A stretch of DNA of 52,862 nt from Bacteroidales bacterium (GTDB lineage: Bacteria > Bacteroidota > Bacteroidia > Bacteroidales > UBA932): assembly GCA_017557535.1 (NCBI GenBank), contig JAFYYM010000030.1:1-52862 (forward strand), read 5' to 3'. The position numbers and the translations under genes are program-made. A model generated the notes under the pieces. That model saw only the letters and a list, made by a program, of their open reading frames with translations, was not told where the DNA came from and ran no database searches. Below, piece after piece: positions 12,179-41,942 of this stretch. Each line of letters starts with the position of its first letter. Positions within the stretch are counted from its first letter, which is position 1.

Positions 12179-12206
12179 TGAAAAAACCGCCCGGTTAGGG
12201 GCGGTT
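12179..12206 (-). terminator. Terminator overlapping the SNF2 gene stop codon
   Basis: AACCGCC and GGCGGTT form a stem followed on the minus strand by six or more T. The SNF2 stop codon (TAA, 12197-12195) lies in the loop, so coding and termination signals overlap. Confidence 0.8.
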
Positions 12207-15200: not shown

Positions 15201-15266
15201 GGCAAGAGACTTTGTAACCGCCTCGCTTTCCGTAGGTGGGTTGTTCTGATTGTCTGTTTCTTCCAT
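12195..15266 (-). CDS. SNF2/RapA-type DEAH helicase
   Basis: The 1023-aa protein has all main SNF2 motifs: Q-like FQTYQFKPL, Walker A DEVGLGKTIEAGYI (87-100), DEAH (203-206), LTATP, and in the second RecA domain VVFAIFRKTLEYL, ASEVAGEGLDLEF and QRIGRLDRFGQ. It is an ATP-driven DNA translocase of the HepA/RapA group. The C-terminal 350 residues are a family-specific extension. A DrmD-like role was considered, but no drmA or drmB gene is present. Its promoter region is a sister of that of the DGQHR gene next to it, which suggests joint control and a shared pathway. Confidence 0.88.
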   Translation of the reverse strand: MEETDNQNNPPTESEAVTKSLAFDDCTQGIFGTYADYTRVDTTNKIVSSNNSTISSLTASRTMFQTYQFKPLVKFLNSPNRRMLVADEVGLGKTIEAGYIMQELRARGELGNVLLVSPKSLQPKWQKEMRDKFALEFKIYAKISDLFLDLDRNDGHVRAIINYERIRRRKDYDSKHEYDTDAPVNLVDYLVGHKTRFSLVVCDEAHRMRNGNTLTYKGAEIVMSRADAAVFLTATPMMTGTGDYYNLLHLLDPDRFEDYNAFLNLLMETRPFIVAATKVNNKTPFSEIIEWLESYEVKVLYRDESASISLSKTETISQIYSGNPLYDEIIKLLDGSDTPATRATILKRLESISQTNDIFTRTRKREVNTSTTKPERKAHIVEVIPTAEETLLEKEVIGKYLKENLSPTKFVPSANLMAQLEALSPGQRMGLMQIRRQLASSVHAYLSTEDDLEKGVDAFVASVDSKVDCLVELIEGRVKTGGQRKVVVFAIFRKTLEYLRIRLRRQGYNCLIVHGGVDNRDEVIGQFRKNPNIHVLLASEVAGEGLDLEFCSSIVNFDLPWNPMVVEQRIGRLDRFGQKAPIVHIYNMVMRGSIQEHIYSRLFQRIGMFEWNIGELEEILDMPLSSYYSLRFAALQQYEDQYYRGELTDEDVLRKIGEVAIACESRQQGARLLNEDLEETLTYDSYCCDKINQILTGRSSLGSEQLRMYLEDVLTVAIPGSILEDREDGTCRIHLPMGRSTALVDFLLDNQPAGDDNVKMFSDFISDIKRKYPVTLTFDQEVAFANRDLVFVNMFHPLIAACVSYNERTGKTRQETFSFSLPYGPVRGDYFLAQYEIVTKRDVHGVTKTSTELFPVLYDAQVGVVIPDQKVAEDFYRWTQGVAQDRKADERFLAADVLAQMRSDLEEYVGNEAETRRLELVSASQAAAERRTARTREYYEAIIHNRQRAIDLWEHVIKHNWFLTLKERRCLLGAIHVTLENIRDAQTEMEERMALITPGEVQVETRLLLLSLIHVDDTIENRP

Positions 15267-19968: not shown

Positions 19969-22900
19969 TTAGCTTGCTTCACTATAGTCCGCCCACTGCT
20001 CACATTGTGCTAAGACGATTTCCATTGCATTCTGGGCTTCCTCCGGCGGATAATGATACTTCTTAAGGAGCCTTTTGACCATCTTTCTCATATCAGCCCT
20101 GGCGGATTCCTTCATCTGCCAGTCGATGGTCCGGTTCTTCCTAAGTTGCTCAGTAAGCTCCCTCGTCAAGTTCACCAGCTCGTCGTTCTCGTAAGCATCA
20201 CGAACAGCCTGTGGCTTGGTGAGGGCATCATAGAAAGCCTTTTCTTCCGTGGTAAGCCCAAGTTCATTTCCTTCCTCTTCGCTTTTCTTGATTTCCTGGG
20301 CTAGCTTTATCAACTCCTGAATAACCTCCTCGTTAGTCAGCATCCCCTTCAGATAACTGGACAGGGCATTGTTGAACATCTCGGAGAACTTCTCGCTCTG
20401 AACAACATTCGTCCGTTTATAGGCGCTGACCTTCTCCTTGATTAGATTTTTCAGTAGCTCGATGGCAACATTCTTCTCTTCCATCTTCTTAAGCTCTTCC
20501 AGGAAGGCTGGATCACTGAGAGAGAATTCTTTGTTGGCATCTGCAAATAGGTTGATGACACCTTCGCTCCGGACGCTCTGTTTAAGCAACTCGGAGATTC
20601 TGGCACTTATCTCCGCCATCTTCGCTTTCCCATTGCCGGTAATCCTCAGTATCATAATCCGGACAGTTTCAAAATAGGAAGCATACCACCTCTCTTCCTC
20701 GGATACTATGCTTCGACAGAGGGAATATGCATTTCTTAACAGCAGGGCCTCTTTCTTGAAACTAGCCAGGACCTCTTCTTTTCCGACCGCAAGCAGGAAA
20801 TTCACACCGCCCTTAATAAGCAGAGCCCTTTCGTGGTCGCCAACATGCTGGAAGCCCTTGTAATCAAACCCATGCATCAGATCATCACATATCTCCAGCT
20901 TTTCCCGGAACTTCACGTAGGCCGTTTTCTTGATGTCCATATCACCGAACTGGCTCCTATCATGGTCGGTATAGTCCCTCATGGCATTCTTCAAAGCCTG
21001 AGCGATACCCACGTAATCAATGACCAAGCCTCCGCTCTTGCCTTTGAACACCCGGTTAACCCGTGCTATGGCCTGCATCAAGTTGTGCCCGTTCATCGGC
21101 TTGAAGACATACATCGTGGCAAGGGAGGGGACATCAAATCCAGTAAGCCACATATCCACGACAATGGCTATCTTCATCGGGTCTGTGTCATCCTTGAACT
21201 TCTTGCCGAGTTCTCGTTTGGTTAATTTATTGCCGATGATACGATACCATTCCTCTGGATCATTGTTCCCCGAGGTCATAACCACCTTCACCTTTTCGGT
21301 CCAGTCGGGACGAAGTTCCAGCATCTTCTTATAGATCTTGATGGCTATAGGTCTGCTATATGCGACAACCATCGCCTTGCCGGTTAGCTCATACTGGCGA
21401 TTCTCCTCGTAGTGTTTGATAATATCACGAACGAGGGAATCTATTGTGGAGTCGGCACCCAGGAGGGCATCGATATGGGCAAACTTATGCTTGCTTCTGC
21501 TAATCTGCTCTTCGGTCGCACCTTCGGCTGCCAGGAGGTCATACTGCTCGTCAATCTGTTTCAGAATCTCAGGGTCAAGATTCAGATTCACGACACGGCT
21601 CTCATAGTAGACGGGAACGGTGGCCTTGTCCAAGACAGACTGGGTCATGTCGTAGATGTTGATATAATCTCCGAAGACCTCTCGGGTGTTCCTGTCCCTT
21701 TGCTCGATAGGGGTGCCGGTAAAGCCGATGAAACTGGCATGAGGCAGCGACTTTCGGATGATGCCGGCGGTTCCCAACTTGACCTCGCCGGTTTCAGGAT
21801 CTACCCTCTCATCAAGGCCATACTGACCACGGTGAGCCTCATCACACATCACGATTATATTGCTCCGTTCAGAAAGCGGCTCATCACTTTCCTCAAACTT
21901 TTGCATTGTCGTGAAGATGATGCCATTCGCTTCCCGACCAATCAGGAGTTCTTTCAGATTCTCTCTACTGGAAGCCTGAACGGGTTTCTGTCGGAGGAAG
22001 TGCTCACACCTGGAGAACTGACCATAAAGCTGATCATCAAGGTCATTTCGATCGGTGATTACTACGATGGTAGGTTGCTTGATGCTTCGCTGAAGGAGGT
22101 GGGCATAGAAAACCATGGACAGAGATTTCCCACTTCCCGTCGTATGCCAGAATACACCAATCCTTCCGTCCTCTTGGACTGCTTTTTCTGTTCTTTCGAT
22201 TGCTGCCGAGACGGCGAAATACTGATGATAGCCAGCCAGGATCTTTCCTGTCCGGTCTTCACCCTTATCGAAGCAGATGAAGTTATGAATCAGATTCAGC
22301 AGCCTCTCTTTCTTGAACATCCCCTCAAAGAAAGTATCGTAATCAACCACCTCAACGGCCTCATACTTTCCATCAACGGATTTCCACTGAAGGAATCTGT
22401 CCTCATTGCTAGTAATCGTCCCCGCCTTACTCTCCGACATGTCGCTCATCACACAGAATGCATTGTAGACGAACAAGGATTCAATCTCATGCATGTAGTT
22501 TCTAAGTTGGCGATAGGCGGCAGATGCATCCGTTTCTTCCCTTGACGGAGACTTCAGTTCCATCACCACCAGAGGGAGGCCGTTAATGAAGACAATCAGG
22601 TCAGCCCTCTTTTCGCTCTTTTCGATGAAGGTCCACTGATTGATGATTTGGAACGTATTCCTATGGGGATTGTCATAGTCGACAAGATAGACGATATCAT
22701 GTTTTTCCTCTCCATCGTAATAGGAAACCTCGACACCATTTTGGAGATAATCCATGAACACCTCATTCTTCTGGACAAGTGAGCCAGTATCGATATTCTT
22801 CAGCTTGGTGATGGCTTCCTCAACGGCCTGGTGGGGTTTGCCAAAGTTAATGGCCGAGACACTATCCCTAAGCTGAGCCTCATAGAAAGGAACATAGTAA

Positions 22901-23004
22901 TCCCTCTCTACATCCGGTCCATAGAGATATTCATAGCCGAGTTTGTCCCTGAATAAGTCAATCAGAGCTTTCTCGTAGCTGCTTTCATTATAAAGAGCGA
23001 TCAT
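19969..23004 (-). CDS. hsdR: Type I restriction endonuclease subunit R
   Basis: The 1011-aa motor and nuclease subunit cleaves unmodified DNA far from the recognition site after ATP-driven translocation. The N-terminal PD-(D/E)XK nuclease has Asp135 and the ELK pair Glu149/Lys151 (LIVFINGLPLVVMELKSP). The SF2 motor shows HTTGSGKS (Walker A near 287-294), DEAH (388-391), GFTGTP and QAIARVNRVFKGK (motif VI). The C-terminal helical region contacts the methylase complex. The start at 23004 lies 4 bp after the hsdS stop; an earlier ATG would overlap hsdS. Confidence 0.95.
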   Translation of the reverse strand: MIALYNESSYEKALIDLFRDKLGYEYLYGPDVERDYYVPFYEAQLRDSVSAINFGKPHQAVEEAITKLKNIDTGSLVQKNEVFMDYLQNGVEVSYYDGEEKHDIVYLVDYDNPHRNTFQIINQWTFIEKSEKRADLIVFINGLPLVVMELKSPSREETDASAAYRQLRNYMHEIESLFVYNAFCVMSDMSESKAGTITSNEDRFLQWKSVDGKYEAVEVVDYDTFFEGMFKKERLLNLIHNFICFDKGEDRTGKILAGYHQYFAVSAAIERTEKAVQEDGRIGVFWHTTGSGKSLSMVFYAHLLQRSIKQPTIVVITDRNDLDDQLYGQFSRCEHFLRQKPVQASSRENLKELLIGREANGIIFTTMQKFEESDEPLSERSNIIVMCDEAHRGQYGLDERVDPETGEVKLGTAGIIRKSLPHASFIGFTGTPIEQRDRNTREVFGDYINIYDMTQSVLDKATVPVYYESRVVNLNLDPEILKQIDEQYDLLAAEGATEEQISRSKHKFAHIDALLGADSTIDSLVRDIIKHYEENRQYELTGKAMVVAYSRPIAIKIYKKMLELRPDWTEKVKVVMTSGNNDPEEWYRIIGNKLTKRELGKKFKDDTDPMKIAIVVDMWLTGFDVPSLATMYVFKPMNGHNLMQAIARVNRVFKGKSGGLVIDYVGIAQALKNAMRDYTDHDRSQFGDMDIKKTAYVKFREKLEICDDLMHGFDYKGFQHVGDHERALLIKGGVNFLLAVGKEEVLASFKKEALLLRNAYSLCRSIVSEEERWYASYFETVRIMILRITGNGKAKMAEISARISELLKQSVRSEGVINLFADANKEFSLSDPAFLEELKKMEEKNVAIELLKNLIKEKVSAYKRTNVVQSEKFSEMFNNALSSYLKGMLTNEEVIQELIKLAQEIKKSEEEGNELGLTTEEKAFYDALTKPQAVRDAYENDELVNLTRELTEQLRKNRTIDWQMKESARADMRKMVKRLLKKYHYPPEEAQNAMEIVLAQCEQWADYSEAS

Positions 23005-23008
23005 AATA

Positions 23009-24229
23009 CTAGACGGATATCTCACCAGACATAAGTTTTGGAAGGAGGGAATCCCGCAGAATAGAAAGATATTTTGACTCTGCCTCTAGGCTTTCTTGCA
23101 TTTGGAAAAAGGGCTTTTCTAATTCTTCAAATGACTGCAGAATCTCAACTGGAGGAATAATCGTGTGTAACGACTTCATTAGGGCCCCGGAAGCTTCTTT
23201 GAAAGTCGATCCTGTTGCTTTAGCAATAATAGTTTTAGTATTCAATTTTAAGAAGAAATACAAAAAAGCTGTTCCTGCCATTTGGGGAACTGCGGATTTA
23301 AAGCCCTGGTTGGTACAGACGTTATTCTTTGCTATAGATATATAGCCTATTGGTGCTCGTGAGCTAAACAAGATAGATCCTCTCGGGATTAACTTAGCCC
23401 CACTATTCTTGTAACCTAATTCGGTGATATCATTCTCTCCTCTAGCTGTAAACTTGGCATTAGTATTCGATAAATCTTTTGGTGTTAACCATGCTATTCC
23501 CTCTTTGCAATAATAATCAATACAACTTTTTGAGGGTGTCCCACCTCCAACTATTTCACAAATCTCATCTAGAGATCCAACTCTCCATTTACAAGGAATC
23601 CTTCCAAGTTCGGAATCCATAAAGTCTCCATCCTGAAACTGCTCAAAGTTAACGAACCAACGTTTAAATATCGCCTGAGCTTGTTCTTCCAAATTCCTAA
23701 TAATACGATTGTTAAGCTCAATCTTATCGTCCAAAGATTTGAGGATGGATACTATCTTTTTTTGGACATCTAGTCGTGGAATACGAATGTTTATTGATTT
23801 TAGTATTCTCCCAGAAAGGCTACCACGAGTACTAGTCCCGTCGGAAAGTAGACGGAACTCTTCATATCGACCATCCAAATTATAGTATAAAAAAAGAGGA
23901 TCTAGCAACGCTGGATTAGCTTCTAAGGCGATGACTGATTGGTTAATATATGTGTCGACCTTCAAATAACTAACTTGTCCCCTTGTACGTCCTTGTCCCG
24001 CAGTGGCGACTACGGTTGAATCTTTTTTGGCTAGACGAGTAGAACTATTCTCGACAGCTATAGGAGTTATTCTCTTCTTGGTATCGTAAATAAACCTTTG
24101 AGATGTTTCGCCAGAGGATAACCAAAGAAGTTCACCTCCCCAATATTCGGGATTCATAGAAGAGGGCGTTCCTCCACTAAAGATATCGTTGCAAACGTCG
24201 CCTAGACTATATGTTTTCCAGTCCTCCAT
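23009..24229 (-). CDS. hsdS: Type I restriction-modification specificity subunit S
   Basis: The 406-aa protein has the two half-structures expected: TRD1 (about 1-150) with conserved opening WKTYSLGDVCNDIFSGGTPS and helical spacer (about 155-195, KKIVSILKSLDDKIELNNRI), then TRD2 (about 210-360, WRVGSLDEICEIVGGGTPS) and a final helix with LLPKLMSGEISV. Each TRD reads half of a bipartite site; the site cannot be predicted here. The TRD1 region is more A+T-rich than hsdM or hsdR, as is common after domain exchange. No second hsdS copy or inverted repeat for shuffling was seen. Confidence 0.93.
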   Translation of the reverse strand: MEDWKTYSLGDVCNDIFSGGTPSSMNPEYWGGELLWLSSGETSQRFIYDTKKRITPIAVENSSTRLAKKDSTVVATAGQGRTRGQVSYLKVDTYINQSVIALEANPALLDPLFLYYNLDGRYEEFRLLSDGTSTRGSLSGRILKSINIRIPRLDVQKKIVSILKSLDDKIELNNRIIRNLEEQAQAIFKRWFVNFEQFQDGDFMDSELGRIPCKWRVGSLDEICEIVGGGTPSKSCIDYYCKEGIAWLTPKDLSNTNAKFTARGENDITELGYKNSGAKLIPRGSILFSSRAPIGYISIAKNNVCTNQGFKSAVPQMAGTAFLYFFLKLNTKTIIAKATGSTFKEASGALMKSLHTIIPPVEILQSFEELEKPFFQMQESLEAESKYLSILRDSLLPKLMSGEISV

Positions 24230-24245
24230 AAACGCCCCAATAAAA

Positions 24246-25754
24246 CTAAAAGTCTAATCCAATGCTTCTCAATTGTATCTTTATCTCTTCTTCTATTCGA
24301 TGACCTTCATCAAAAAGGTCTTTAAGTTCCATGGTAAGGCGATCCATCTTTTCTTCAAAGAGTTCTTCATCTTCTTGCTGGTCAGCTAATCCAACATATC
24401 GACCTGGCGTTAAGATATAGCCTTGATTCATAACATCATCAAGGGTCTTTACTGCACAAAACCCTTTTTCATCTTCAAGGGTACCTATCCGAAAAGCGGC
24501 GAATGATTTAGCAATCTTTTGAATATCTCTTTCTGTTAATTCGCGAAGGCTCCGAGACACTAATTCGCCCATTTTCCGAGCATCAACAAAAAGAATCTTC
24601 CCTTTTTGTGCTTTATCTCTGGAAAGGAACCATAAAGAAACGGGAATTCCCGTTGTATAGAAAAGCTTTTCCGGTAATGCGACAATCCCTTCTACCAGGT
24701 CTGCTTTGATGATATTCTCGCGTATCGTTCCTTCTCCACCAGTATTCGAACTGAGAGAACCATTGGCCAGAACCATTCCTATCTTTCCGACCGGCGAGAG
24801 GTGATAAATCATGTGTTGGAGCCAAGCAAAGTTAGCATTTCCTTCTGGTGGAATACCAAACTTCCAGCGGACATCATCTTGAAGCTTTCCGGCACCCCAG
24901 TCGCTGAGGTTGAAGGGCGGATTTGCCATAACAAAGTCGGCCTTCAGAGTCGGGTGTTGATCATCGAAGAAAGTATCTGCATTATACTTGCCCAAGTTCG
25001 CCTCCAGTCCCCGAATAGCCAGATTCATCCTTGCCATCTTCCAGGTCGTAGGGTTGCTGTCCTGACCATAAATGGAGATGTTTTTCAGATTTCCCTGATG
25101 TTCGTTGATGAACTTGGCAGATTGGACAAACATTCCACCAGAACCACAAGCAGGGTCATAAACTCTTCCCTTGTACGGCTCGATGACCTCCACAATCGTT
25201 CTAACAATACAAGCAGGAGTATAGAATTCCCCAGCGTTCTTTCCCTCTTTTTCGGCGAACTTCCTCAAGCAATACTCATACGTCCTGCCTAGAAGATCCT
25301 TACTATCATCGTCAGAACTGAGCTTGATACTATTGGTGAAGAGATCCACGACATCGCCGAGCCGTCTTTTGTCAAGTTCGGGTCTGGCGAAATTCTTAGG
25401 GAGGATGTTCTTGAGTTGGGGATTCTCCTGTTCAATCAACCTCATGGCATCATCAATAGCCTTTCCGATTTCGGGGGTATGGGCGGCTTCTGCAACTTTA
25501 GCCCATCTTGCTTCGGCAGGAACAAAGAAAATATTACAGGAGGTATACTCATCCTTATCTTCCTCAAATCCTTCGCCTTCCTGTACAAGTTCAGCATACT
25601 TTTCATCAAATCGGTCGGAAATATACTTCAGGAAAATAAGCCCGAGTACGACATTCTTGTATTCGGATGCATCAATATTGCCTCTGAGAAGATCTGCCGC
25701 TTTCCAGATTTTATCCTCAAAGCCCAACTCTGTGGTACTATTGGTCTTTGCCAT
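24246..25754 (-). CDS. hsdM: Type I restriction-modification methyltransferase subunit M
   Basis: The 502-aa N6-adenine methyltransferase subunit has an N-terminal helical domain (KIWKAADLLRGNIDASEYK), motif I DPACGSGGMF (200-209) for S-adenosylmethionine, and catalytic motif IV NPPF (278-281). It forms M2S with HsdS to protect host DNA, and M2SR2 with HsdR to restrict. It is the first gene of the operon, 16 bp before hsdS. A TATATTTG -7 box lies at 25789-25782. Confidence 0.95.
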   Translation of the reverse strand: MAKTNSTTELGFEDKIWKAADLLRGNIDASEYKNVVLGLIFLKYISDRFDEKYAELVQEGEGFEEDKDEYTSCNIFFVPAEARWAKVAEAAHTPEIGKAIDDAMRLIEQENPQLKNILPKNFARPELDKRRLGDVVDLFTNSIKLSSDDDSKDLLGRTYEYCLRKFAEKEGKNAGEFYTPACIVRTIVEVIEPYKGRVYDPACGSGGMFVQSAKFINEHQGNLKNISIYGQDSNPTTWKMARMNLAIRGLEANLGKYNADTFFDDQHPTLKADFVMANPPFNLSDWGAGKLQDDVRWKFGIPPEGNANFAWLQHMIYHLSPVGKIGMVLANGSLSSNTGGEGTIRENIIKADLVEGIVALPEKLFYTTGIPVSLWFLSRDKAQKGKILFVDARKMGELVSRSLRELTERDIQKIAKSFAAFRIGTLEDEKGFCAVKTLDDVMNQGYILTPGRYVGLADQQEDEELFEEKMDRLTMELKDLFDEGHRIEEEIKIQLRSIGLDF

Positions 25755-30644: not shown

Positions 30645-30866
30645 ATGCCTCGATTTAGAATCACGACCAAGTCTCGGACCCAACTCAACGGCATTCGCAT
30701 CGAACCCGGGATGTCTGTCGAGGTCATCACCAGAGATTATTCAAATCCTCTTCTCATCAATGGAGGCCAGCCCGTTGTGGATGCTTTCATGAGGATTTAT
30801 GGCATTGATATCCGTCGGGCAGGTGTTTGCAGCCCGGTGTATCTTGATGTTAAACAAATAGGATAA
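30645..30866 (+). CDS. DUF6140-like small protein (73 aa)
   Basis: The start at 30645 gives MPRFRITTKSRTQLNGIRIE, then GMSVEVIT, NPLLINGGQPVVDAFMRIYGIDI and YLDVKQI at the end, resembling the small DUF6140-type proteins of Bacteroidetes. The longer frame from 30594 is less likely because it overlaps the presumed terminator T-run. It lies 15 bp before the GTPase gene and may form an operon with it. Function is unknown, and the family name is from memory of the pattern. Confidence 0.65.
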   Translation: MPRFRITTKSRTQLNGIRIEPGMSVEVITRDYSNPLLINGGQPVVDAFMRIYGIDIRRAGVCSPVYLDVKQIG

Positions 30867-30881
30867 TAAGCACTTAATGAA

Positions 30882-31586
30882 ATGAGTAAGTTTTCCGACA
30901 CGATAAAGTATTTCTATTATCATATTCTCCCACACACATACCCTTTTGGATCCCTCTTGTATATCATTATTGGTTTATTGTTTCCGTCCAAGGCGAAAAG
31001 TATCGCTATCATCGGTACTAAATGGGCGGGAAAGACAACACTCTGGAAAGGCCTTGGCGGTATAAAAGAGTATAAGCCTAATACGCAAGTTGAACCTATT
31101 CAGTCCTTTACGATAACCCGTGCTAATGGGACGACTGTCGTAATATCTCACACTTATGATATTGGAGGTGAGGATGATTACGTTTGTGAATATGAAAAGT
31201 TGATAAAAGAAGATACGTTCATATACTACCTTGTGGATGCCAACAGAATTACGTTACATGATTATTTGGTAAGAGTTAGATCAGACTTAGTGAAGATTGA
31301 TAAAATCGTGAAAAGTAAAAAGATTCCGGAAGACAAACTAGGTTTTAAGTTCATTATTACGCACTATTATGACTATACTAAGAGTAATCCATTTAATAGT
31401 GAGTATGAGCTTTATCGTCAATTCCTAAATGGACTGAAAGGTAGCGAGGGAAGAGGGGTTATCGGAAAGAGGCTGACGGTGGACAATTATAGTAAGATTA
31501 TGATGGTTGCGGAGTTGGACCCACAAAAAGCGGCATATCTCAAAAAAAACTATATAGATATTATCAAAAATGAAATTGGCGCTTAA
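30882..31586 (+). CDS. Membrane-associated small GTPase-like protein
   Basis: The 234-aa protein has an N-terminal hydrophobic segment (about residues 22-35) and then a P-loop GTPase core: IIGTKWAGKTTLW (Walker A/G1, 43-55), DIGG (93-96, G3 of the Arf/Ras-like type) and ITHYYDYTK (159-167) at the place of the G4 motif, where the usual NKxD is replaced by THYYD. It probably switches on GTP binding at the membrane. The next gene, 2 bp on, encodes a membrane protein, its probable partner. Strong A+T content suggests recent acquisition. Confidence 0.75.
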   Translation: MSKFSDTIKYFYYHILPHTYPFGSLLYIIIGLLFPSKAKSIAIIGTKWAGKTTLWKGLGGIKEYKPNTQVEPIQSFTITRANGTTVVISHTYDIGGEDDYVCEYEKLIKEDTFIYYLVDANRITLHDYLVRVRSDLVKIDKIVKSKKIPEDKLGFKFIITHYYDYTKSNPFNSEYELYRQFLNGLKGSEGRGVIGKRLTVDNYSKIMMVAELDPQKAAYLKKNYIDIIKNEIGA

Positions 31587-32192: not shown

Positions 32193-32939
32193 ATGAATAA
32201 CATGGAACACTACCCACAACTGATTATTATCCCTGATGAGGATTATGAATATGGTATAAACCACGGTGCTTACCCTGAATTCCAAGAAGAACTAAGTACC
32301 GGAGATGTCATTGTTTTATCTAGAGATAAAGCGACAACAGAGTACGGAATAGCTACACCCAAAGATAATAAGGTCTATGTAAGAAATGTTTTTAATGGTG
32401 CTTACATTGATATCTCCGCAGAGAATACAGAAAAGAGTTTCATTGAAGCAAAGGCCGTTGCTTTAAGAGAGGTCTTAGTAATGCTCGGGGCTTTTTCGGC
32501 AGAGTTAGAGCATACGATTGAACATAAACAGGATAAAGATTTAAAGATTGGAGCGAAAGGGAAAAAAGGACCGAATAAAGGATCTCTTTCACTTCACCAA
32601 AATAAGCACAAAGAAGTGAACCTTGAAGCTATTATAAGATTAAAGCCCTTCAACCGTTCTTCAAAGAGCGCAGGTGATATACGCCAATATGCTTTTACAC
32701 ATGGTTTAGGGGGAGAAAGCACAATTTTGGCCTGGATAGATCGACTTGAACGAGATGGTAAACTGGAAGGTTCAGAGGAAATCGAAGTATCCTTCTTAGA
32801 GGAATTATCAATCGCTCGTGATGCGGCGTTAAACCTTAAACTTGTTCAGTGTGAGGTCGGTTTTAATATTGAAAGCCTCTGCAGGGAGACACATCATTTT
32901 GTTGAGAAAATATCCATCGATTTTGGTGACCACAGTTAA
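32193..32939 (+). CDS. Hypothetical protein (248 aa)
   Basis: I do not recognise this soluble, A+T-rich protein. Its N-terminal region is acidic and beta-rich (QLIIIPDEDYEYG, TGDVIVLSRDKATTEYG). The middle (DLKIGAKGKKGPNKGSL) is basic and flexible. Residues about 160-205 (SAGDIRQYAFTHGLGGESTI, ILAWIDRLERDGKLEGS) look like a winged helix. It stands between the GTPase pair and the 135-aa gene in the same direction and may be under its own promoter. Confidence 0.6.
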   Translation: MNNMEHYPQLIIIPDEDYEYGINHGAYPEFQEELSTGDVIVLSRDKATTEYGIATPKDNKVYVRNVFNGAYIDISAENTEKSFIEAKAVALREVLVMLGAFSAELEHTIEHKQDKDLKIGAKGKKGPNKGSLSLHQNKHKEVNLEAIIRLKPFNRSSKSAGDIRQYAFTHGLGGESTILAWIDRLERDGKLEGSEEIEVSFLEELSIARDAALNLKLVQCEVGFNIESLCRETHHFVEKISIDFGDHS

Positions 32940-32976: not shown

Positions 32977-33384
32977 ATGCTAGTTCAATATTCGGACAAA
33001 GTATGGGCACATTCGGAAGATTCATATTATAGAGTGTCAAAAGAATCCCTTCACTTTCTTCAACCAGCCCGCCGTGTTTATACAGCGGTCAAACATGTTA
33101 TCCAGAACACCCCAGGGATGAAACGGGTGAGATGCGATGACGACCGGTTCATTGTGTCCGCTTCTCATGGCTGGTCTTTGATTCCGCTTGGTGAGAATAT
33201 CAGGATTAGAGTCGTAGCAGATGGGACACAGGAATCCGATGTCCATATAGAATCGAAAGGCAAGATCCTGGTTAATCCGCTTGTCATTCCACAGAACAAA
33301 GCCAATATCCAAGAACTGTCCGACTACATCAAAAACCGGGTGGGGATGTTGTGTTCGGACGAAGAATTACATCTAAACCATTGA
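32977..33384 (+). CDS. Hypothetical protein (135 aa)
   Basis: The sequence has an alternating beta-alpha pattern: RRVYTAVKHVIQNTPGMKRVR, then DRFIVSASHGW, NIRIRVVADGTQESDVHIES and a final helix ELSDYIKNRV. This resembles SRPBCC or DUF1499-like folds, but only by shape. There is no membrane segment. It ends 6 bp before the Ntn-hydrolase-like gene, so the two are probably co-translated and may work together. Confidence 0.6.
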   Translation: MLVQYSDKVWAHSEDSYYRVSKESLHFLQPARRVYTAVKHVIQNTPGMKRVRCDDDRFIVSASHGWSLIPLGENIRIRVVADGTQESDVHIESKGKILVNPLVIPQNKANIQELSDYIKNRVGMLCSDEELHLNH

Positions 33385-33390
33385 CCAAGT

Positions 33391-34677
33391 ATGACAGCTA
33401 TCGTAGGAATTCTCAACAAACGTGCTGCCGTAATGGCAGCTGATAGCGCCGTAACTGTGAATTCGGACAGCGGAACCAAGATTTACAATACGGCCACCAA
33501 GATTTTCCGGCTCTCAAAGAAGCATCCGGTAGGCGTGATGATTTTTGATTCGGCAGGGTTCATGGGAACGCCGTGGGACGTCATCTTCAAACTATACCGT
33601 GACCGGAAGGGAGATCAGGGGTTCAATACGCTGGAAGAGTATGCCCGCAACTTTCTCCATTTCCTGGAGGCCGAAGACTATTTCAGCAGTCCGAGGAGCC
33701 AGGAAAAGTACCTGACAAAAGAGGTTTCGGCATACTATCATAAAGTCAAGGACTATGTCATCGAGAAGTTTGAAGAGCAGTTGGACGAGAACGATTTGAC
33801 AGAAGAAGAGCAGGACAAACTGGTCAGGAAACTCATTGTCGGGCGGATCGGAGCCATTACGGAAGGGGCCAAAGATCATGGTGTGAGCCCTGAGTTTGAA
33901 GATTATACGTTGGCTCATCTTCGGTCTTTCGGTAAGGATTGCCTGGATTCCCTGGCCGAGGTTTGTGAGGAAGCCGGCTTCCCTGTCGACTTCCGGGATA
34001 CCTGGGAGGAGGGTTTCTTTGAGTATATTCGGTCGCAACTGTATTTCTCAGGGACAGGGATTGTGTTCGCCGGCTATGGCAGTAAGGATATCTATCCGTC
34101 CATCCTGACTGTCTATATCTCTGGGGCTTTCGACCGGCGGATGCGGTATTATTTCTCGTACGATGATGATTCGGACAAGATTGACAATGACAACTCTGCC
34201 ACCATCATTCCGTTTGCCCAGGTGGACGTGATGCTCACGTTGATGAAAGGGATCCATCCGGGACTACGCCGCTACGTGGAAAGCAAGCATGCGGATTCCC
34301 TCACAAAAGCCAAGGAAAAGATGCTGGAGGCAATGAAGGAAGCCGGTTGTACGAAAAAGGCCATGAAGAAGGTGGAGGAGACGGACCTTTCCGACATCCA
34401 AAACAATTATGAAGAGTCGATGGATCAGTTCATTCAGGACGAATTCATCGACGGAATCGTGGATGCCGTCAACTCCTTCAACATAGAAGATATGGTCAAT
34501 ATGGCCGAAAGCCTCGTCTCCGTCACCAATCTCCAGCGTCACATCAGTTCCTCCGAGGAGTCCGTCGGCGGTCCCATTGACGTAGCCGTCATTACCCGTT
34601 CCGAAGGTTTCATGTGGGTGAAGCACAAGCATTGGATGCCTCGTCTCCAAGATGACCAATCGCTTCTACTGGAATAA
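33391..34677 (+). CDS. Proteasome-beta-like Ntn hydrolase (428 aa)
   Basis: After removal of Met1 the protein begins with Thr, followed by the beta-strand pattern of proteasome and HslV subunits: TAIVGILNKRAAVMAADSAVT. Asp at position 17 after Thr1 and a Lys near 33-36 (TATKIF) match the catalytic Thr1-Asp17-Lys33 set. Then come VGVMIFDSAGFMGTPWDVIFKLY (strand and first helix) and later GIVFAGYGSKDIYPSILTVYISG, like the proteasome LxxGYD-LY block. An inserted helical region of about 110 residues and a C-terminal helical tail are extra. It is probably a peptidase or amidohydrolase; the substrate is unknown. Confidence 0.65.
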   Translation: MTAIVGILNKRAAVMAADSAVTVNSDSGTKIYNTATKIFRLSKKHPVGVMIFDSAGFMGTPWDVIFKLYRDRKGDQGFNTLEEYARNFLHFLEAEDYFSSPRSQEKYLTKEVSAYYHKVKDYVIEKFEEQLDENDLTEEEQDKLVRKLIVGRIGAITEGAKDHGVSPEFEDYTLAHLRSFGKDCLDSLAEVCEEAGFPVDFRDTWEEGFFEYIRSQLYFSGTGIVFAGYGSKDIYPSILTVYISGAFDRRMRYYFSYDDDSDKIDNDNSATIIPFAQVDVMLTLMKGIHPGLRRYVESKHADSLTKAKEKMLEAMKEAGCTKKAMKKVEETDLSDIQNNYEESMDQFIQDEFIDGIVDAVNSFNIEDMVNMAESLVSVTNLQRHISSSEESVGGPIDVAVITRSEGFMWVKHKHWMPRLQDDQSLLLE

Positions 34678-34688
34678 TGTGAGTGTTT

Positions 34689-34868
34689 ATGGGTAATTTT
34701 GATACATCCATACGTTTTGCAGAGGAGCAGATAGAACGCCTCAAGCAGCAAATCAGTATGTACAAGAAGTTCAGGAATCCTGGCTGGGAGGGTGCTGTTG
34801 ATTCGCTGACCAAACAAATTAACAACAAGAAGGCCTCCATCGCTGACATGAAAAAGCGAAACAGATAG
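34689..34868 (+). CDS. Small coiled-coil protein (59 aa)
   Basis: The protein is nearly all charged helix (FAEEQIERLKQQISMYKK, DSLTKQINNKKASIADMKK), a likely coiled coil. I chose the ATG at 34689; a GTG at 34683 is possible. It starts 11 bp after the Ntn-hydrolase-like gene and is probably part of that transcript, perhaps as its partner or inhibitor. Confidence 0.55.
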   Translation: MGNFDTSIRFAEEQIERLKQQISMYKKFRNPGWEGAVDSLTKQINNKKASIADMKKRNR

Positions 34869-34948: not shown

Positions 34949-35686
34949 GTGAATATGTACATTGATTACATCAGATTGGCGTGGGAGAAGGTGGAACCAG
35001 ATTCCTACTTACACGGGATTCGGTCTATCCGGAACCTTGAACAGTTTCGGTTTCATTCTCCCGTCACTTTCTTTGTCGGAGAAAATGGTAGCGGGAAATC
35101 CACCTTATTGGAAGCCATTGCAGTGGCTTATGGATTCAACCCGGAAGGCGGCTCTCTCAATTACAATTTCTCCACATTCGACGATCACTCAGGGCTTTAC
35201 AAAGCCATGACAATCGGGAAAGGTGTAGCGGGGCGACGGCATGGATTCTTTCTCCGGGCCGAGAGTTTCTACAATGTCGCCTCAAAGACGCTGGAATATG
35301 AACGGTTGGGGTGTTCCGGGCCCATGTTCGGCGATGAAACCCTTCATGCCCAATCCCATGGGGAGAGTTTCATGAGTGTAATCACGACGATGGGCAAGGG
35401 ACTATTCCTCATGGATGAACCGGAAGCAGCTCTCTCTCCCAACCGGCAACTGTCGCTGTTTTCCAAAATTATGCAGATGTCCCAGGAGGGCTCTCAATAT
35501 ATCGTTGTCACACATTCGCCCATTTTGCTGGCGATACCCGGGGCCGAGATTTATGCTTTTGATGAAACAGGCGTCAATCATCAGGAGTATGAGGAGACCG
35601 ACAGCTATAGAGTATACGAGTTGTTTATCAATCATCGGGAGAGCATGATCCGGCAATTGTCACCCGGAAACGAAGACGAAACCTGA
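34949..35686 (+). CDS. ABC/SMC-type AAA ATPase (single domain, 245 aa)
   Basis: This is a compact ABC-family ATPase: Walker A FFVGENGSGKST (41-52), a signature-like segment AQSHGESFM (134-142), Walker B GLFLMDEPEAALSP (151-164) and the switch His in VVTHSP (186-191). It lacks the TOPRIM nuclease of OLD proteins and the coiled coils of SMC. Such single-domain AAA_21 ATPases often work with an effector encoded next door. The PLD-like gene follows 21 bp later, though it seems to have its own promoter box. Confidence 0.82.
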   Translation: MNMYIDYIRLAWEKVEPDSYLHGIRSIRNLEQFRFHSPVTFFVGENGSGKSTLLEAIAVAYGFNPEGGSLNYNFSTFDDHSGLYKAMTIGKGVAGRRHGFFLRAESFYNVASKTLEYERLGCSGPMFGDETLHAQSHGESFMSVITTMGKGLFLMDEPEAALSPNRQLSLFSKIMQMSQEGSQYIVVTHSPILLAIPGAEIYAFDETGVNHQEYEETDSYRVYELFINHRESMIRQLSPGNEDET

Positions 35687-35707: not shown

Positions 35708-36214
35708 ATGACACAGTACATCTCAGATGACGCCCATTTCAAGGAGGTGATTGCCCGGGTCCCTAAGGTGAAACGTTCGCTTTGGATAGGAACAGCGGAT
35801 ATCAAGGACCTCTATGTTGAAGACCGCCCTTTCCTGGGAATCCTGGCCGACCTGATCAAAAAGGGGAAGGAAGTTCGTCTCATTCACGCCAAGGAACCCG
35901 GTCCGAACTTTAGAGAGGATTTCGACCATTATCCTGTCCTCTTTACCGGCCTTGAGCGTGCCCTTTGTCCCCGTGTCCACTTCAAGATCATCGTCTTTGA
36001 TTGCCAGACTGCCTATATCGGTTCTGCCAATCTGACGGGGGCAGGGATTGGTATGAAGAGTTCTCGGATCCGAAACTTTGAGGCAGGAATCCTGACCGAT
36101 GAACCAGCCCTTGTTGAAGCCGCAATTAACCAATTTGACTCTGTCTGGGCGGGATTCAAGTGCAAGGACTGCGGACGGAAAAAGTTCTGTGGAGATCCAA
36201 TCCTGTCTCGATAA
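35708..36214 (+). CDS. Phospholipase D-like protein with one HKD motif
   Basis: The 168-aa protein carries one HKD motif: His91-x-Lys93-x4-Asp98 (VHFKIIVFD) followed by GSANLTGAG (105-113), where two such motifs, here by dimerisation, form the active site for phosphodiester cleavage. The C-terminus has Cys152, Cys155 and Cys161 (CKDCGRKKFC), a possible zinc site. It is a likely nuclease. It follows the ATPase gene closely. Confidence 0.82.
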   Translation: MTQYISDDAHFKEVIARVPKVKRSLWIGTADIKDLYVEDRPFLGILADLIKKGKEVRLIHAKEPGPNFREDFDHYPVLFTGLERALCPRVHFKIIVFDCQTAYIGSANLTGAGIGMKSSRIRNFEAGILTDEPALVEAAINQFDSVWAGFKCKDCGRKKFCGDPILSR

Positions 36215-36359: not shown

Positions 36360-37586
36360 ATGGCAAGCTACAAAAAAATCCAGGACATCACGGATCTTGA
36401 CACGAGGCTACGAGTTGTCGACAGACTGCTGAAGTTAAGGGCTCAACTGGCAGACGAAATCCCGGAAAAGACCGCTACCGAGACCCTGCTCATTGCTACA
36501 TGGAATATCCGCGAGTTTGGAGACAACAGACTTGAGGAGAGCCTGTATTACATAGCGGAGATTATCGACCACTTTGACATCGTGGTCATCCAGGAAATCA
36601 ACTCGAAGAAACTTGACGGTTTCAAGTCCGTGATGAAGATTCTTGGGGACAACTGGTCATATATCATTTCCGACGGAGTCAAGGGTACCGACGGAGGGAG
36701 TGAGGCCATGGCGTTCGTTTACAACAAGAACAAGGTGCAGTTCACCCATTTGGCGGGAGAGATAGTCCTTCAGAATTCTAAGAAACTTGCTGGATCCATC
36801 GTTGAAGGAAAAGTGCTGGTGGACGGTGTATTGGTTGATGGAAAGGTGCAGTCGAAGGTTCAGTTCGCAAGGACACCGTTCATGGTATCGTTAATGGCCA
36901 ATTGGTTTTCATTCAACATCTGCACCGTCCATATCTATTATGGCAGCGAAAAGAATGAACGGGGAATCGTGGAGAGACGCAAGAAAGAAATTGAGACGAT
37001 ATCATCCGTACTGCTGGAAAGGCAGAAAGAAGAGGACGTCTCCTACATCCTCCTTGGCGACTTCAATATCCCTGATACGAACGGAGAGTATTTCAATGCC
37101 CTCTCCAAGAAAAGGGGATTCTTTGTTCCGGAAGAGATCAAGAAACACCCTACGGACTTGGGACAGGTAAGCCATTACGACCAGATTGCATTCAAGTTGA
37201 AACTCGAAGACGAGATGGTCCTGTACAAAGACAAACAGCAGAGAGCGGGCGCCTTTAACTTCACGAAGTCGGTCTTCAGAGACAGTGACGATGTGTCGGA
37301 TTATGATATCTACATCAATCATTATCTGGATTCTTACCTTGGCGAACTTGCAGAGACTAATGCAAAGCTGAAGGCAAAGGGCAAAGCAGAGAATGAGGAC
37401 ACCGAAGAAGGCAGACGGGCTTTCTTCAGGGGATGGCGCACATACCAGATGTCAGACCATCTCCCTCTGTGGGTCGAATTGAAAATCGACTTCAGCGACC
37501 AATTCCTGAAGAACAGGGGGGAAGAGGCAGAAGAACTGAAGAAGAAAGCCGCTGAAGAGAATCCTGGTGTTTCCGACGCAGAATGA
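36360..37586 (+). CDS. Endonuclease/exonuclease/phosphatase (EEP) family protein
   Basis: The 408-aa protein has the EEP/DNase I-like signature residues: LIATWNIREFG (Asn49), VVIQEI (Glu79), HIYYG (His191), LLGDFNIPD (Asp234, Asn236), SHYDQIAF (Asp274) and SDHLPL (Asp366-His367). The fold uses a divalent metal to hydrolyse phosphodiester bonds, in nucleic acid or lipid. It has a helical N-terminus and a charged helical C-terminal tail. No signal peptide is present, so it should act inside the cell. It is followed by two small membrane proteins. Confidence 0.85.
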   Translation: MASYKKIQDITDLDTRLRVVDRLLKLRAQLADEIPEKTATETLLIATWNIREFGDNRLEESLYYIAEIIDHFDIVVIQEINSKKLDGFKSVMKILGDNWSYIISDGVKGTDGGSEAMAFVYNKNKVQFTHLAGEIVLQNSKKLAGSIVEGKVLVDGVLVDGKVQSKVQFARTPFMVSLMANWFSFNICTVHIYYGSEKNERGIVERRKKEIETISSVLLERQKEEDVSYILLGDFNIPDTNGEYFNALSKKRGFFVPEEIKKHPTDLGQVSHYDQIAFKLKLEDEMVLYKDKQQRAGAFNFTKSVFRDSDDVSDYDIYINHYLDSYLGELAETNAKLKAKGKAENEDTEEGRRAFFRGWRTYQMSDHLPLWVELKIDFSDQFLKNRGEEAEELKKKAAEENPGVSDAE

Positions 37587-37611: not shown

Positions 37612-37824
37612 ATGAAACTTGACAGCGAACAAAAACGGATACTCAGGGCCATTTCGGGTTCCAGCCTGGGCTTCATCATCGGTTATCCTCTCATCATGTG
37701 GATTGGCGGCAAGTTGGACTCATGGAAAGATGCGTTAGCCTGGTTGGGAGTGGGTCTTGTGGTCGCCGTTGTTATGGGTATCTTCTATGTCCTGGGTTCG
37801 AAGATTTCTAAGAAAGATGATTGA
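37612..37824 (+). CDS. Small two-helix membrane protein (70 aa)
   Basis: Two hydrophobic stretches (SSLGFIIGYPLIMWIGG and LAWLGVGLVVAVVMGIFYVLG) are joined by a short polar loop, with a charged N-terminus and a Lys-rich end. It is probably an inner-membrane hairpin protein. It starts 25 bp after the EEP gene and 3 bp before the next. Function unknown; small membrane proteins beside nuclease genes are sometimes effectors or immunity proteins. Confidence 0.65.
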   Translation: MKLDSEQKRILRAISGSSLGFIIGYPLIMWIGGKLDSWKDALAWLGVGLVVAVVMGIFYVLGSKISKKDD

Positions 37825-37827
37825 ACG

Positions 37828-38157
37828 ATGGAACAGAAAGGACTTACAAAGAAACAGTTTTGGATTCAGCTGACCCCCGTAATCTTTTATACGCCACTAG
37901 CGGTCATTTGGATGATTGAGGGTATCCGGATGCATAGGGTCTTGATCCTGATTGCCAGCATCGCATATTTTGTTCTGATAATCTGGATGGTCGTGTCGCT
38001 CATCATCAGGCGGAAACGCTACCCGATAGAGGATGAGGAATCAGACAGGCAGGCTGTCGGGGCGTTCAAGGACGGAGCAATGGGCATGGGAATCGTGATG
38101 GCCATCATCACGGTCGGATTCCTTCTGGCTTTTGGTCTTGCCACCCTGTTGAAATAA
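37828..38157 (+). CDS. Small membrane protein (109 aa)
   Basis: Three hydrophobic helices are visible: LTPVIFYTPLAVIWMIEG, VLILIASIAYFVLIIWMVVSL and GIVMAIITVGFLLAFGLATLL. An acidic loop (IEDEESDRQA) lies between the second and third. Family unknown. It ends just before a strong terminator and probably forms an operon with the 70-aa gene. Confidence 0.65.
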   Translation: MEQKGLTKKQFWIQLTPVIFYTPLAVIWMIEGIRMHRVLILIASIAYFVLIIWMVVSLIIRRKRYPIEDEESDRQAVGAFKDGAMGMGIVMAIITVGFLLAFGLATLLK

Positions 38158-40583: not shown

Positions 40584-41942
40584 TTACTTCTTCAACAGTT
40601 TCAGTACTTTTTTCAAAACATCATCACTTGCTGAGTCAAGAAGATTGATGATCTCTCGTTTGACCGCTGAGGTTTCCCAAAGGCCCATTTCCTTTGCAAC
40701 AGCCTCGTCAGCAACCTCAATATAGGGTCTCATATTCTCATACTTAGCATGGCCAGTACACTTCATTACCGCTGTCGGAGTGATTCCGAGCTGTAAGGAA
40801 CAACATACAAAAGTCCGTCTTCCATCATGGCAACTAAGCGTTTCCCACAATTTACTAACCTTCTCATGTCGTTCCTTATCAACAAAATATGTTTCTACGA
40901 CCACTCGGTTTAGGCCTGCCAACTTTGCTGCTTCCTTAATATACCCATTGAGGACAGTATTCCCAGGAGCCGGGAACAACCTCTCCCCTCTTGTATCCTT
41001 ATACTTATCGATAATCTCCTGAGCATAGGACAGAATGGGTATCTGAAGCATGTCTCGTGTTTTGACGGTGTATATTTGTATATACTCCGGCGTGATGTCC
41101 GCTTTTTTCAAAGTGGACATGTCTGAGTATCGAAGGCTGGTGAATGCCATGAAACAAAACATATCACGAGCCCTGATGACTTGGGGTTTCGTTCCTTCCG
41201 GAAATTCAAACTTGTGGAAAGCGAGCAACTCCTCATACTTCAAGTAGGTTATCCGCTTCTCAGGTACAGATACCCTGTGCTTGAAATTGAGAGCTTCATC
41301 CTGGACAGTATATCCATTTGCCCGTGCCCACCTCAAAAGAGTCTTCAGGCTGCTAAACCACTTTACAATGGTTTGATTATGTCTGCCCTGCTTGAAACAA
41401 TACTCTCGAAGCTTCAGCAACGCTCCCTTATCAATCTGGTCAATTCTGATTCCAGGATTTGCCTTGAGCAGATAGGAGACCGCTTGTGAATACTTGAATT
41501 GGCTGTGGTCTTTCCATGAAGCCTCAAGTTTCTGAGATTCAATGAATTTCTTACAGATTGTATCCATCTTCTCCAATGTCAAAGACTTCTTTGCGACAGC
41601 TGCCGGAGCATTCTCTTCCTCAAAGATTCTGTTCATAGCCGTGCGAAATGCGCCGCTATCTGGCACTTCGTCTGCCATTGCAAAATCGTTGAAGACATCT
41701 TCAACATAGCCTAGGACTACCCCAATTCTCTTGTTGATTGCCCCGGCACTACATACATTTTCGCGCACAACGTGCTTCGTATTGTTTACTGCGCGTTGTG
41801 TCGTGAAATCCCATTTTTCGGGATCAGCATAAACTCCGGTCGGAAGTTCGACCTCATTCTTCTTGTGATCCCAACGAACCCGCACGGCGACGGATCCTGA
41901 CTCCTGAGGAAAAACCCTCGTGGTGTAATTAATCTTTATCAT
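40584..41942 (-). CDS. Tyrosine recombinase (integrase) of element B
   Basis: The 452-aa integrase shows Arg271 (FTSLRYSD), a Lys near 294, His372-x-x-Arg375 (SCHDGRR), His398 (GHAKYENM) and Tyr407 (RPYIEV). The N-terminal arm-binding region (YTTRVFPQESGSVAVRVRW) and core-binding region (FIESQKLEASWKDHSQF) are of the Bacteroidetes CTnDOT/Tn4555-like type. It lies 220 bp from the attR copy and is expected to integrate and excise element B. A palindrome at 41965-41980 lies just upstream and may be its regulatory or accessory site. Confidence 0.9.
   Translation of the reverse strand: MIKINYTTRVFPQESGSVAVRVRWDHKKNEVELPTGVYADPEKWDFTTQRAVNNTKHVVRENVCSAGAINKRIGVVLGYVEDVFNDFAMADEVPDSGAFRTAMNRIFEEENAPAAVAKKSLTLEKMDTICKKFIESQKLEASWKDHSQFKYSQAVSYLLKANPGIRIDQIDKGALLKLREYCFKQGRHNQTIVKWFSSLKTLLRWARANGYTVQDEALNFKHRVSVPEKRITYLKYEELLAFHKFEFPEGTKPQVIRARDMFCFMAFTSLRYSDMSTLKKADITPEYIQIYTVKTRDMLQIPILSYAQEIIDKYKDTRGERLFPAPGNTVLNGYIKEAAKLAGLNRVVVETYFVDKERHEKVSKLWETLSCHDGRRTFVCCSLQLGITPTAVMKCTGHAKYENMRPYIEVADEAVAKEMGLWETSAVKREIINLLDSASDDVLKKVLKLLKK

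Follow-up and report, generated by a model that had tools for sequence, protein, structure and literature searches.

The proteasome-like hydrolases analysed here are in most loci followed by a small open reading frame at the 3' end of their gene, and a single Bacteroidales clade, in which the small partner is missing, is found mostly downstream of a DUF6140 gene. The hydrolase of the DNA under study, a stretch of 52,862 nucleotides from a Bacteroidales bacterium (the window; Table 1), belongs to this clade. We propose, at roughly even chances, that the enzyme is a PMI-4-like Ntn amidohydrolase which is controlled by the partner and acts without an unfoldase, and that in the clade of the window both the partner and the C-terminal tail of the enzyme were lost and the enzyme became cargo of DUF6140 cassettes. 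PMI-4 (Proteasome homolog with Multiple Insertions 4) was named in 2021 in a paper describing 22 new proteasome homologs (Fuchs, Alva and Lupas; PMC8665760); the parts of that paper covered here offer neither a function nor a functional clue, and a linked small gene provides a concrete experimental handle on it. A literature search found no paper giving PMI-4 a function, and the partner ORF, the partnerless clade and the association with DUF6140 appear to be new with respect to the literature searched.

Table 1. Features of the hydrolase locus in the window, with strand and basis of assignment
Feature	Position	Strand	Basis
DUF6140 (PF19637), first gene of cassette	30645..30866	+	E 1.8e-31
Small GTPase-like protein	30882..31586	+	weak Arf match, below cut-off
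162-aa protein, one apparent membrane helix	31589..32077	+	reading of sequence
248-aa protein	32193..32939	+	no family match
135-aa protein of unknown function	32977..33384	+	weak match to phrog_19323
Proteasome-like Ntn hydrolase, PMI-4-like, 428 aa	33391..34677	+	ORF, conservation, core profile, model, fold search
Codon of Thr2, predicted N-terminal nucleophile after Met removal	33394..33396	+	conservation; aligns with Thr1 of proteasome beta from Thermoplasma
Codon of Asp18 (Asp17 from Thr)	33442..33444	+	110/110
Lys37 codon, corresponding to Lys33 of the proteasome	33499..33501	+	111/111; pairs with the lysine of KLF/KIY in archaeal beta
First helical insert (approximately residues 101-214), following H1/H2	33691..34032	+	model secondary structure
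Second helical insert (approximately residues 290-362), between H3 and H4 equivalents	34258..34476	+	model secondary structure
C-terminal tail, degraded relative to RKHYFxxxLNxxFF	34618..34674	+	family consensus comparison
61-aa coiled-coil ORF	34683..34868	+	outside all homologous clusters of small partners
ABC/SMC-type ATPase (AAA_21/AAA_15)	34949..35686	+	family matches; not an unfoldase
PLD-like protein, nearest DrmC	35708..36214	+	relative adjoins hydrolase also in L013
Endonuclease/exonuclease/phosphatase-family protein	36360..37586	+	family match
Two small proteins of 70 and 109 aa, apparently membrane proteins	37612..38157	+	reading of sequence
Tyrosine recombinase	40584..41942	-	family match

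Fold and catalytic residues

The hydrolase ORF starts at an ATG and runs in a single frame. With 428 residues it is, as the sequence-only reading had remarked, nearly twice as long as a proteasome subunit (about 200 aa for 20S beta and HslV). Used as a single sequence, the protein matched no Pfam or NCBIfam family above the family's cut-off and 0 PADLOC families, and its matches among PDB sequences were noise. Pfam family PF00227 gave no match for the window protein and was weakly matched by 11 of 97 family rows (best 1.6e-4).

An AlphaFold2 model based on 97 alignment rows (pLDDT 93.4, pTM 0.90) shows a proteasome-like order of secondary structure elements to which two helical inserts are added. 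Its N-terminal part holds strands 4-9, 13-18, 21-25, 28-32, 38-40 and 47-52 and helices 62-73 and 81-95; the middle consists of insert helices 101-214, strands 222-228, 237-247, 250-255 and 270-276 and helix 278-286; the C-terminal part comprises the insert 290-362, helix 365-386 and strands 396-402 and 406-411. The strands are thus in the order that had been read from the sequence, but the single extra helical insert of that reading has to be replaced by two. Foldseek found 251 PDB matches with E<=10, 4 of them at E<=0.001 (best E 3e-4, probability 1.00). The 50 matches listed of these 251 are 20S or 26S proteasome chains or Anbu chains, with target-normalised TM scores of 0.38-0.59 and rmsd values of 10.5-20.2 over alignments with long gaps caused by the inserts.

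When a core profile from which the inserts had been removed was compared with the PDB, Thermoplasma proteasome beta ranked first with a whole-sequence E of 1.8e-4, the two matched stretches taken alone having E 3.5 and 0.53. The alignment places Thr on Thr1, KLF on KLF and VGGPIDVAVISKGDG on SGGMIDVAVITRKDG. Comparison by hhalign gave E 6.6e-4 and a probability of 27% for archaeal beta, and 2-4% for the alpha, HslV and Anbu-like sets; the same N-terminus was aligned in all four, each alignment being weak alone and the four mutually consistent. The columns of proteasome Asp166 and Ser169 are not kept as such in the family alignment. A relationship to cullin-3, indicated by matches of the full-length profile, was rejected: the matches map to residues 84-161 and are gone with the core profile, and they are therefore attributed to the helical inserts. 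Model, fold search and core profile agree on the proteasome-beta-like Ntn fold of the earlier reading, all 50 listed matches of the structure comparison pointing to it. Assignment of the window protein to the Thr-type Ntn fold of the proteasome superfamily is supported by these predictions.

Relatives detected by tblastn in 10 plasmid and 13 phage records (26-36% identity) are all annotated as hypothetical or carry no annotation. An alignment-based scan found 463 relatives in genome contigs of bacteria and archaea, of which 80 were kept; viral contigs contained a further 173, of which 80 were likewise kept. A scan of viral contigs with the single protein found none. The kept relatives, ten annotated records, the window and its duplicate L001 constitute a family set of 172 sequences, where position 2 is Thr in 165 and Ser in 4, and the N-terminus is missing in 3. 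In a non-redundant set of 111 rows less than 70% identical, window included, the residue after the start is Thr in 105/108 and Ser in 3/108, Ser being the sole substitute for the Thr nucleophile. Sequences L024, L026, L035 and L167 have Ser as the N-terminal nucleophile, its codon directly following the ATG. Other invariant positions in the non-redundant rows are Asp18 (110/110), Ser19 (110/110), Lys37 (111/111) and Asn9 (109/109). Judged from this alignment, the conservation of Thr, Asp and Lys is far beyond chance. Counted from Thr as residue 1, the conserved residues are Asp17 and the Lys of KIF at 36, and the sequence-only reading was right to point to a Thr directly after Met1, an Asp at 17 and a Lys near 33-36; no homologue of the set with its N-terminus has a residue other than Thr or Ser after the Met.

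Met-Thr is a good substrate for methionine aminopeptidase. Presumably the cell's own aminopeptidase takes off the initiator Met, which would expose Thr1 and give a mature enzyme without a propeptide. Control would therefore have to come from elsewhere, most naturally from the small partner. We infer that the enzyme cuts, or transfers, an amide bond in a limited set of proteins and does so without an ATP-driven unfoldase. The assembly is probably not a double ring of the proteasome type, because the helical inserts occupy the H1/H2 and H3/H4 positions. Since the inserts could obstruct rings, a small assembly working on selected substrates is suggested. The covered parts of the 2021 paper state that such inserts might obstruct proteasome-type rings, with the caveat that they could face outwards (PMC8665760).

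An ordinary degradative protease of the HslV/20S type, paired with a housekeeping unfoldase, would share the fold and the triad, and PF00227 proteins occur in 14 of 20 chosen hydrolase-bearing genomes. We nevertheless regard this as quite improbable. The enzyme has two long helical inserts, a search of the window's own genome for PF00227 found nothing at E 0.01, and no AAA+ unfoldase was recognised among ten neighbouring proteins scanned. None of the recurring neighbour families listed looks like an unfoldase either; the commonest is an HTH repressor in 6/111 loci, the others reaching at most 4. The absence of an ATPase gate, which had earlier been called unusual, is not odd for this family, because the 2021 paper reports, in the parts covered, no co-occurring AAA+ interactors for the new homologs (PMC8665760).

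A small gene at the 3' end and the C-terminal tail

Of the 106 non-redundant loci whose sequence extends 200 nt or more downstream, 93 have an ORF of 40-95 aa with its start at -45 to +40 nt relative to the hydrolase stop, compared with 152/611 control genes (the remaining ORFs of 250 aa or longer in these loci); 4 of the 93, those of the window, L015, L019 and L045, were judged to be non-partners. Of the small proteins 69 fall in one single-linkage cluster (E below 0.01), a unity that single linkage on short helical proteins may overstate, and 80 loci have a member of some cluster. Small ORFs that do not align with the main cluster may be different proteins. A CDS is annotated at the partner position in 4 of 10 fetched phage and plasmid records, and two E. 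coli prophage members have ORFs of 49 aa (at +23) and 34 aa (at +17) that are similar to those of L118 and L154.

Among the 70 highest of 248 partner pairs (hydrolase identity 60-98.5%) pN is well below pS in most, as in L149/L155 (0.12 v 0.71) and L108/L144 (0.12 v 0.65), with pS often saturated. The window/L012 pair compares non-homologous ORFs, and the three L025 pairs have too few changes to be informative. In the pairs compared the partner is usually the faster-evolving of the two. For the 37 FFP-type partners the distances track those of the enzymes (rho 0.51, 0/2000 permutations), and all 37 aligned have an [FYL]P pair, plus a C-terminal helix.

The hydrolases themselves end in a tail with the family consensus RKHYFxxxLNxxFF. 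With the tail scored by regular expression and the partner by HMMs, the tail is intact in 64 sequences with a confirmed partner and 30 without, and degraded in 1 with and 11 without, the sole degraded-with-partner case, L020, being only slightly deviant. Without correction for kinship the association has a Fisher p of 9.7e-5. A tree-based test, in which L020 was treated as tail-intact and the small ORFs of the window, L015, L019 and L045 as non-partners, found 3 independent pairs on well-supported branches, too few for significance once kinship is allowed for. On average the partner changed in the same way as the tail in 2.5 (any small ORF) or 2.1 (HMM) of these, and never in the opposite way.

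In the proposed mechanism the activity of most family members would be controlled by the partner of 40-95 aa encoded at the 3' end, which may dock on the conserved tail. In a wider version, which we advance only tentatively and hold to be somewhat doubtful, the single-chain enzyme and its partner form a widespread mobile two-gene module of bacteria, archaea and phages, in which the tail-docked partner restrains or aims the enzyme as part of a new protease-based conflict or toxin-antitoxin-like system, and the DUF6140 cassettes of Bacteroidales captured its partner-free form. If such a mobile protease switch exists, catalysis of the proteasome type would have a place in phage-host conflict that is separate from ATP-driven degradation.

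The partner could also be a substrate or tag, cleaved at the FFP motif in a connectase-like manner so that the partner or its peptide is transferred to another protein. The conserved [FYL]P pair and the faster evolution of the partner would suit such a role. However, the FFP motif is missing from some partner types, and the partners have no common C-terminal residue, unlike Pup, which has one. The clade of the window, moreover, is without the partner and yet keeps its active site. We consider this possibility unlikely, even though one proteasome homolog, connectase, works as a protein ligase according to the parts of the 2021 paper covered here (PMC8665760).

The partnerless clade, its cassettes and its mobile setting

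The window and L012-L019, nine rows classed as partnerless, form one clade with support 100/99 in a tree of 31 chosen rows. The tree of 111 rows places the partnerless members inside a 22-row Bacteroidota clade (SH-aLRT 99), in which each of the other 14 rows has a small protein belonging to the main partner cluster. Tails in the partnerless clade are degraded (e.g. KHKHWMP). Partner and tail would thus have been lost once on the tree. It could be argued that after this loss the protein is a non-catalytic scaffold that serves only as a binding module in its cassette, which would agree with the degraded tail, the absent partner and the variable neighbours. This is improbable, since Asp18, Ser19 and Lys37 are unchanged in 8/8 scored members and Thr2 in 7/7 with an N-terminus. 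With catalytic residues kept and the partner gone, the clade is a natural experiment in which catalysis can be studied apart from partner binding.

The sequence-only reading had seen two neighbours as coupled to the hydrolase. The 135-aa gene indeed lies 6 bp upstream, its ORF ending at 33384; the 11 bp given for the 61-aa gene holds for an internal ATG at 34689, the distance being 5 bp from the GTG at 34683. Neither is conserved as a partner in the genome-context survey of homologues. A profile of the 135-aa gene finds it only in the window, L015 and L018 (and in L001, L173 and L175, duplicates of the same DNA); the 61-aa gene belongs to no partner cluster and has a relative in L018 that does not adjoin the hydrolase there. 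Both were rejected as partners of the family. A divergent family of 130-155 aa recurs 5' of the hydrolase in this clade (L012 8206-8670, L015 8662-9054, L017 599-1006, L019 1364-1765); a scan of a single member, that of L012, found no Pfam family.

A DUF6140 gene is located upstream of the hydrolase in 7/9 clade loci (window, L012, L013, L014, L015, L017 and L018). It is absent at L016, where 107 nt precede the ORF, and at L019, where about 3.2 kb do. Two hydrolase loci outside the tree, L177 and L181, also have it; the other loci among L002-L171, with upstream lengths that vary, have none. DUF6140 occurs in 15/344 genomes of the order, the window's included. The cassette of the window consists of DUF6140, the GTPase-like protein, the 162-, 248- and 135-aa proteins, the hydrolase, the 61-aa protein and the ABC/SMC-type ATPase, followed by the PLD-like protein, the endonuclease/exonuclease/phosphatase-family protein and two small proteins. 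Elsewhere in the clade neighbours include EcsC (L013), a weak TerB match (L017) and vWA (L019). We propose that the intact, partner-free enzyme was recruited as cargo of such cassettes on mobile elements.

The DUF6140 gene, of 70-75 aa, heads Bacteroidales cassettes in L012-L018, L183-L190 and L246-L257, and the cargo varies by locus between GTPase-like, EcsC, GmrSD_N and PLD-like proteins and the hydrolase. A GmrSD_N protein is present in L188 and, by eye, a PLD-like protein in L190; none of the further DUF6140 loci listed has the hydrolase. L018 has three DUF6140 matches on one contig. A literature search found no paper that names DUF6140.

Carriage by a mobile element, also proposed from the sequence, agrees with the tyrosine recombinase, the type I restriction-modification genes of the window (HsdR 19969-23025, HsdS 23009-24229, HsdM 24246-25754), the patchy presence of the hydrolase in 8/299 genomes of the family and 8/393 of the order (the window's own counted in both), and the relatives in phages, a satellite and plasmids. 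The window that holds the type I genes also encodes an SNF2 helicase closest to DrmD/DpdE (12195-15266), below NCBIfam cut-offs. In E. coli one DNA query gave partial matches only, in 22/5426 genomes; two loci fetched encode full-length members.

A different function for the pair can be considered in this setting, namely that of a lysogenic-conversion or anti-phage module. The pair would protect the lysogen, infection would disturb the partner, and the freed enzyme would cut a phage or host protein. The presence of hydrolase relatives in 13 phage and 10 plasmid records and in 173 stretches of viral contigs fits this idea. The positions in prophages point the same way. The rexAB genes are located after a cI-type repressor gene, and a rexAB-like position is taken by the hydrolase of one E. 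coli prophage: it comes after a same-strand HTH gene resembling cI, with 42 bp between this gene and the annotated start, or about 140 bp if the MTA start is used. In another the hydrolase lies between Q and methylase/lysis genes, on the opposite strand, and in the satellite Javan103 it is directly 3' of an HTH-regulator gene. The window copy is near the type I genes and the DrmD-like helicase. However, the neighbourhoods at chromosomal loci show no clear PADLOC excess: 110 of 199 near and 110 of 181 far candidates were sampled, giving 73 PADLOC families for the near and 45 for the far neighbours, with single proteins for nearly all of the 25 families listed for each. Many of the 25 near-neighbour Pfam families listed are housekeeping, repressor adjacency concerns a minority (HTH_3 in 3/38 upstream neighbours scanned), and the hydrolase itself matches no PADLOC model. 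We regard this module as tenable but of clearly less than even probability; phage conflict as a role is perhaps a reasonable guess.

In two rhizobial plasmid loci (L010, L011) genes for multiubiquitin and a ThiF-family E1 lie within a few kb of the hydrolase. A link to such genes as a rule of the family is not supported: among the neighbour clusters of at least 3 loci listed, none resembles either protein. Repeated transfer between archaea and bacteria was also considered, as a quick tree interleaves them, but it is not supported because a single clade of the nine archaeal rows is not rejected (p-AU 0.545).

Comparison with known systems

The reading preferred here, a partner-controlled amidohydrolase with a derived partner-free clade, can be set against several known enzymes. 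20S beta and HslV share the fold, the N-terminal Thr and equivalents of Asp17 and Lys33, beta also having the GG-x-x-DVAVI strand. They differ in being about 200 aa long, whereas the window enzyme has 428 aa with two helical inserts, no propeptide and no recognised AAA+ partner. Anbu has the Ntn fold as well (5nyg and 5nyj are among the listed matches), and sequences taken as Anbu also start with MT, but it forms a separate sequence group; Anbu is not known to have helical inserts comparable to those of the window hydrolase. In phages the same family is represented by phrog_5990, which covers the window hydrolase (E 4.6e-95) and is annotated only as of unknown function. Connectase is also of the proteasome family; as described in the parts of the 2021 paper covered, it is without the first helix pair and has its insert at S3/S4 (PMC8665760), whereas the inserts here are at other sites.

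The closest correspondence is with PMI-4. It is described, in the same parts of the paper, as having long inserts after H1/H2 and between H3/H4, with 501 sequences at 90% identity from bacteria, euryarchaea and phages, a representative HDY66466.1 and the KEGG set OC.661505-661513 (PMC8665760). The family studied here is like it in the proteasome-like core, Thr1/Asp17/Lys33, the insert sites (helices 101-214 and 290-362) and the spread over bacteria, Euryarchaeota and phages. On these described features, as distinct from the HDY66466.1 sequence itself, the family fits PMI-4, and the enzyme class is therefore not new. What differs is the genomic picture: the covered parts of the 2021 paper report no genomic context that would point to a specific function (PMC8665760), whereas here a small partner ORF is found at the 3' end of the gene, together with a clade that has dispensed with it.
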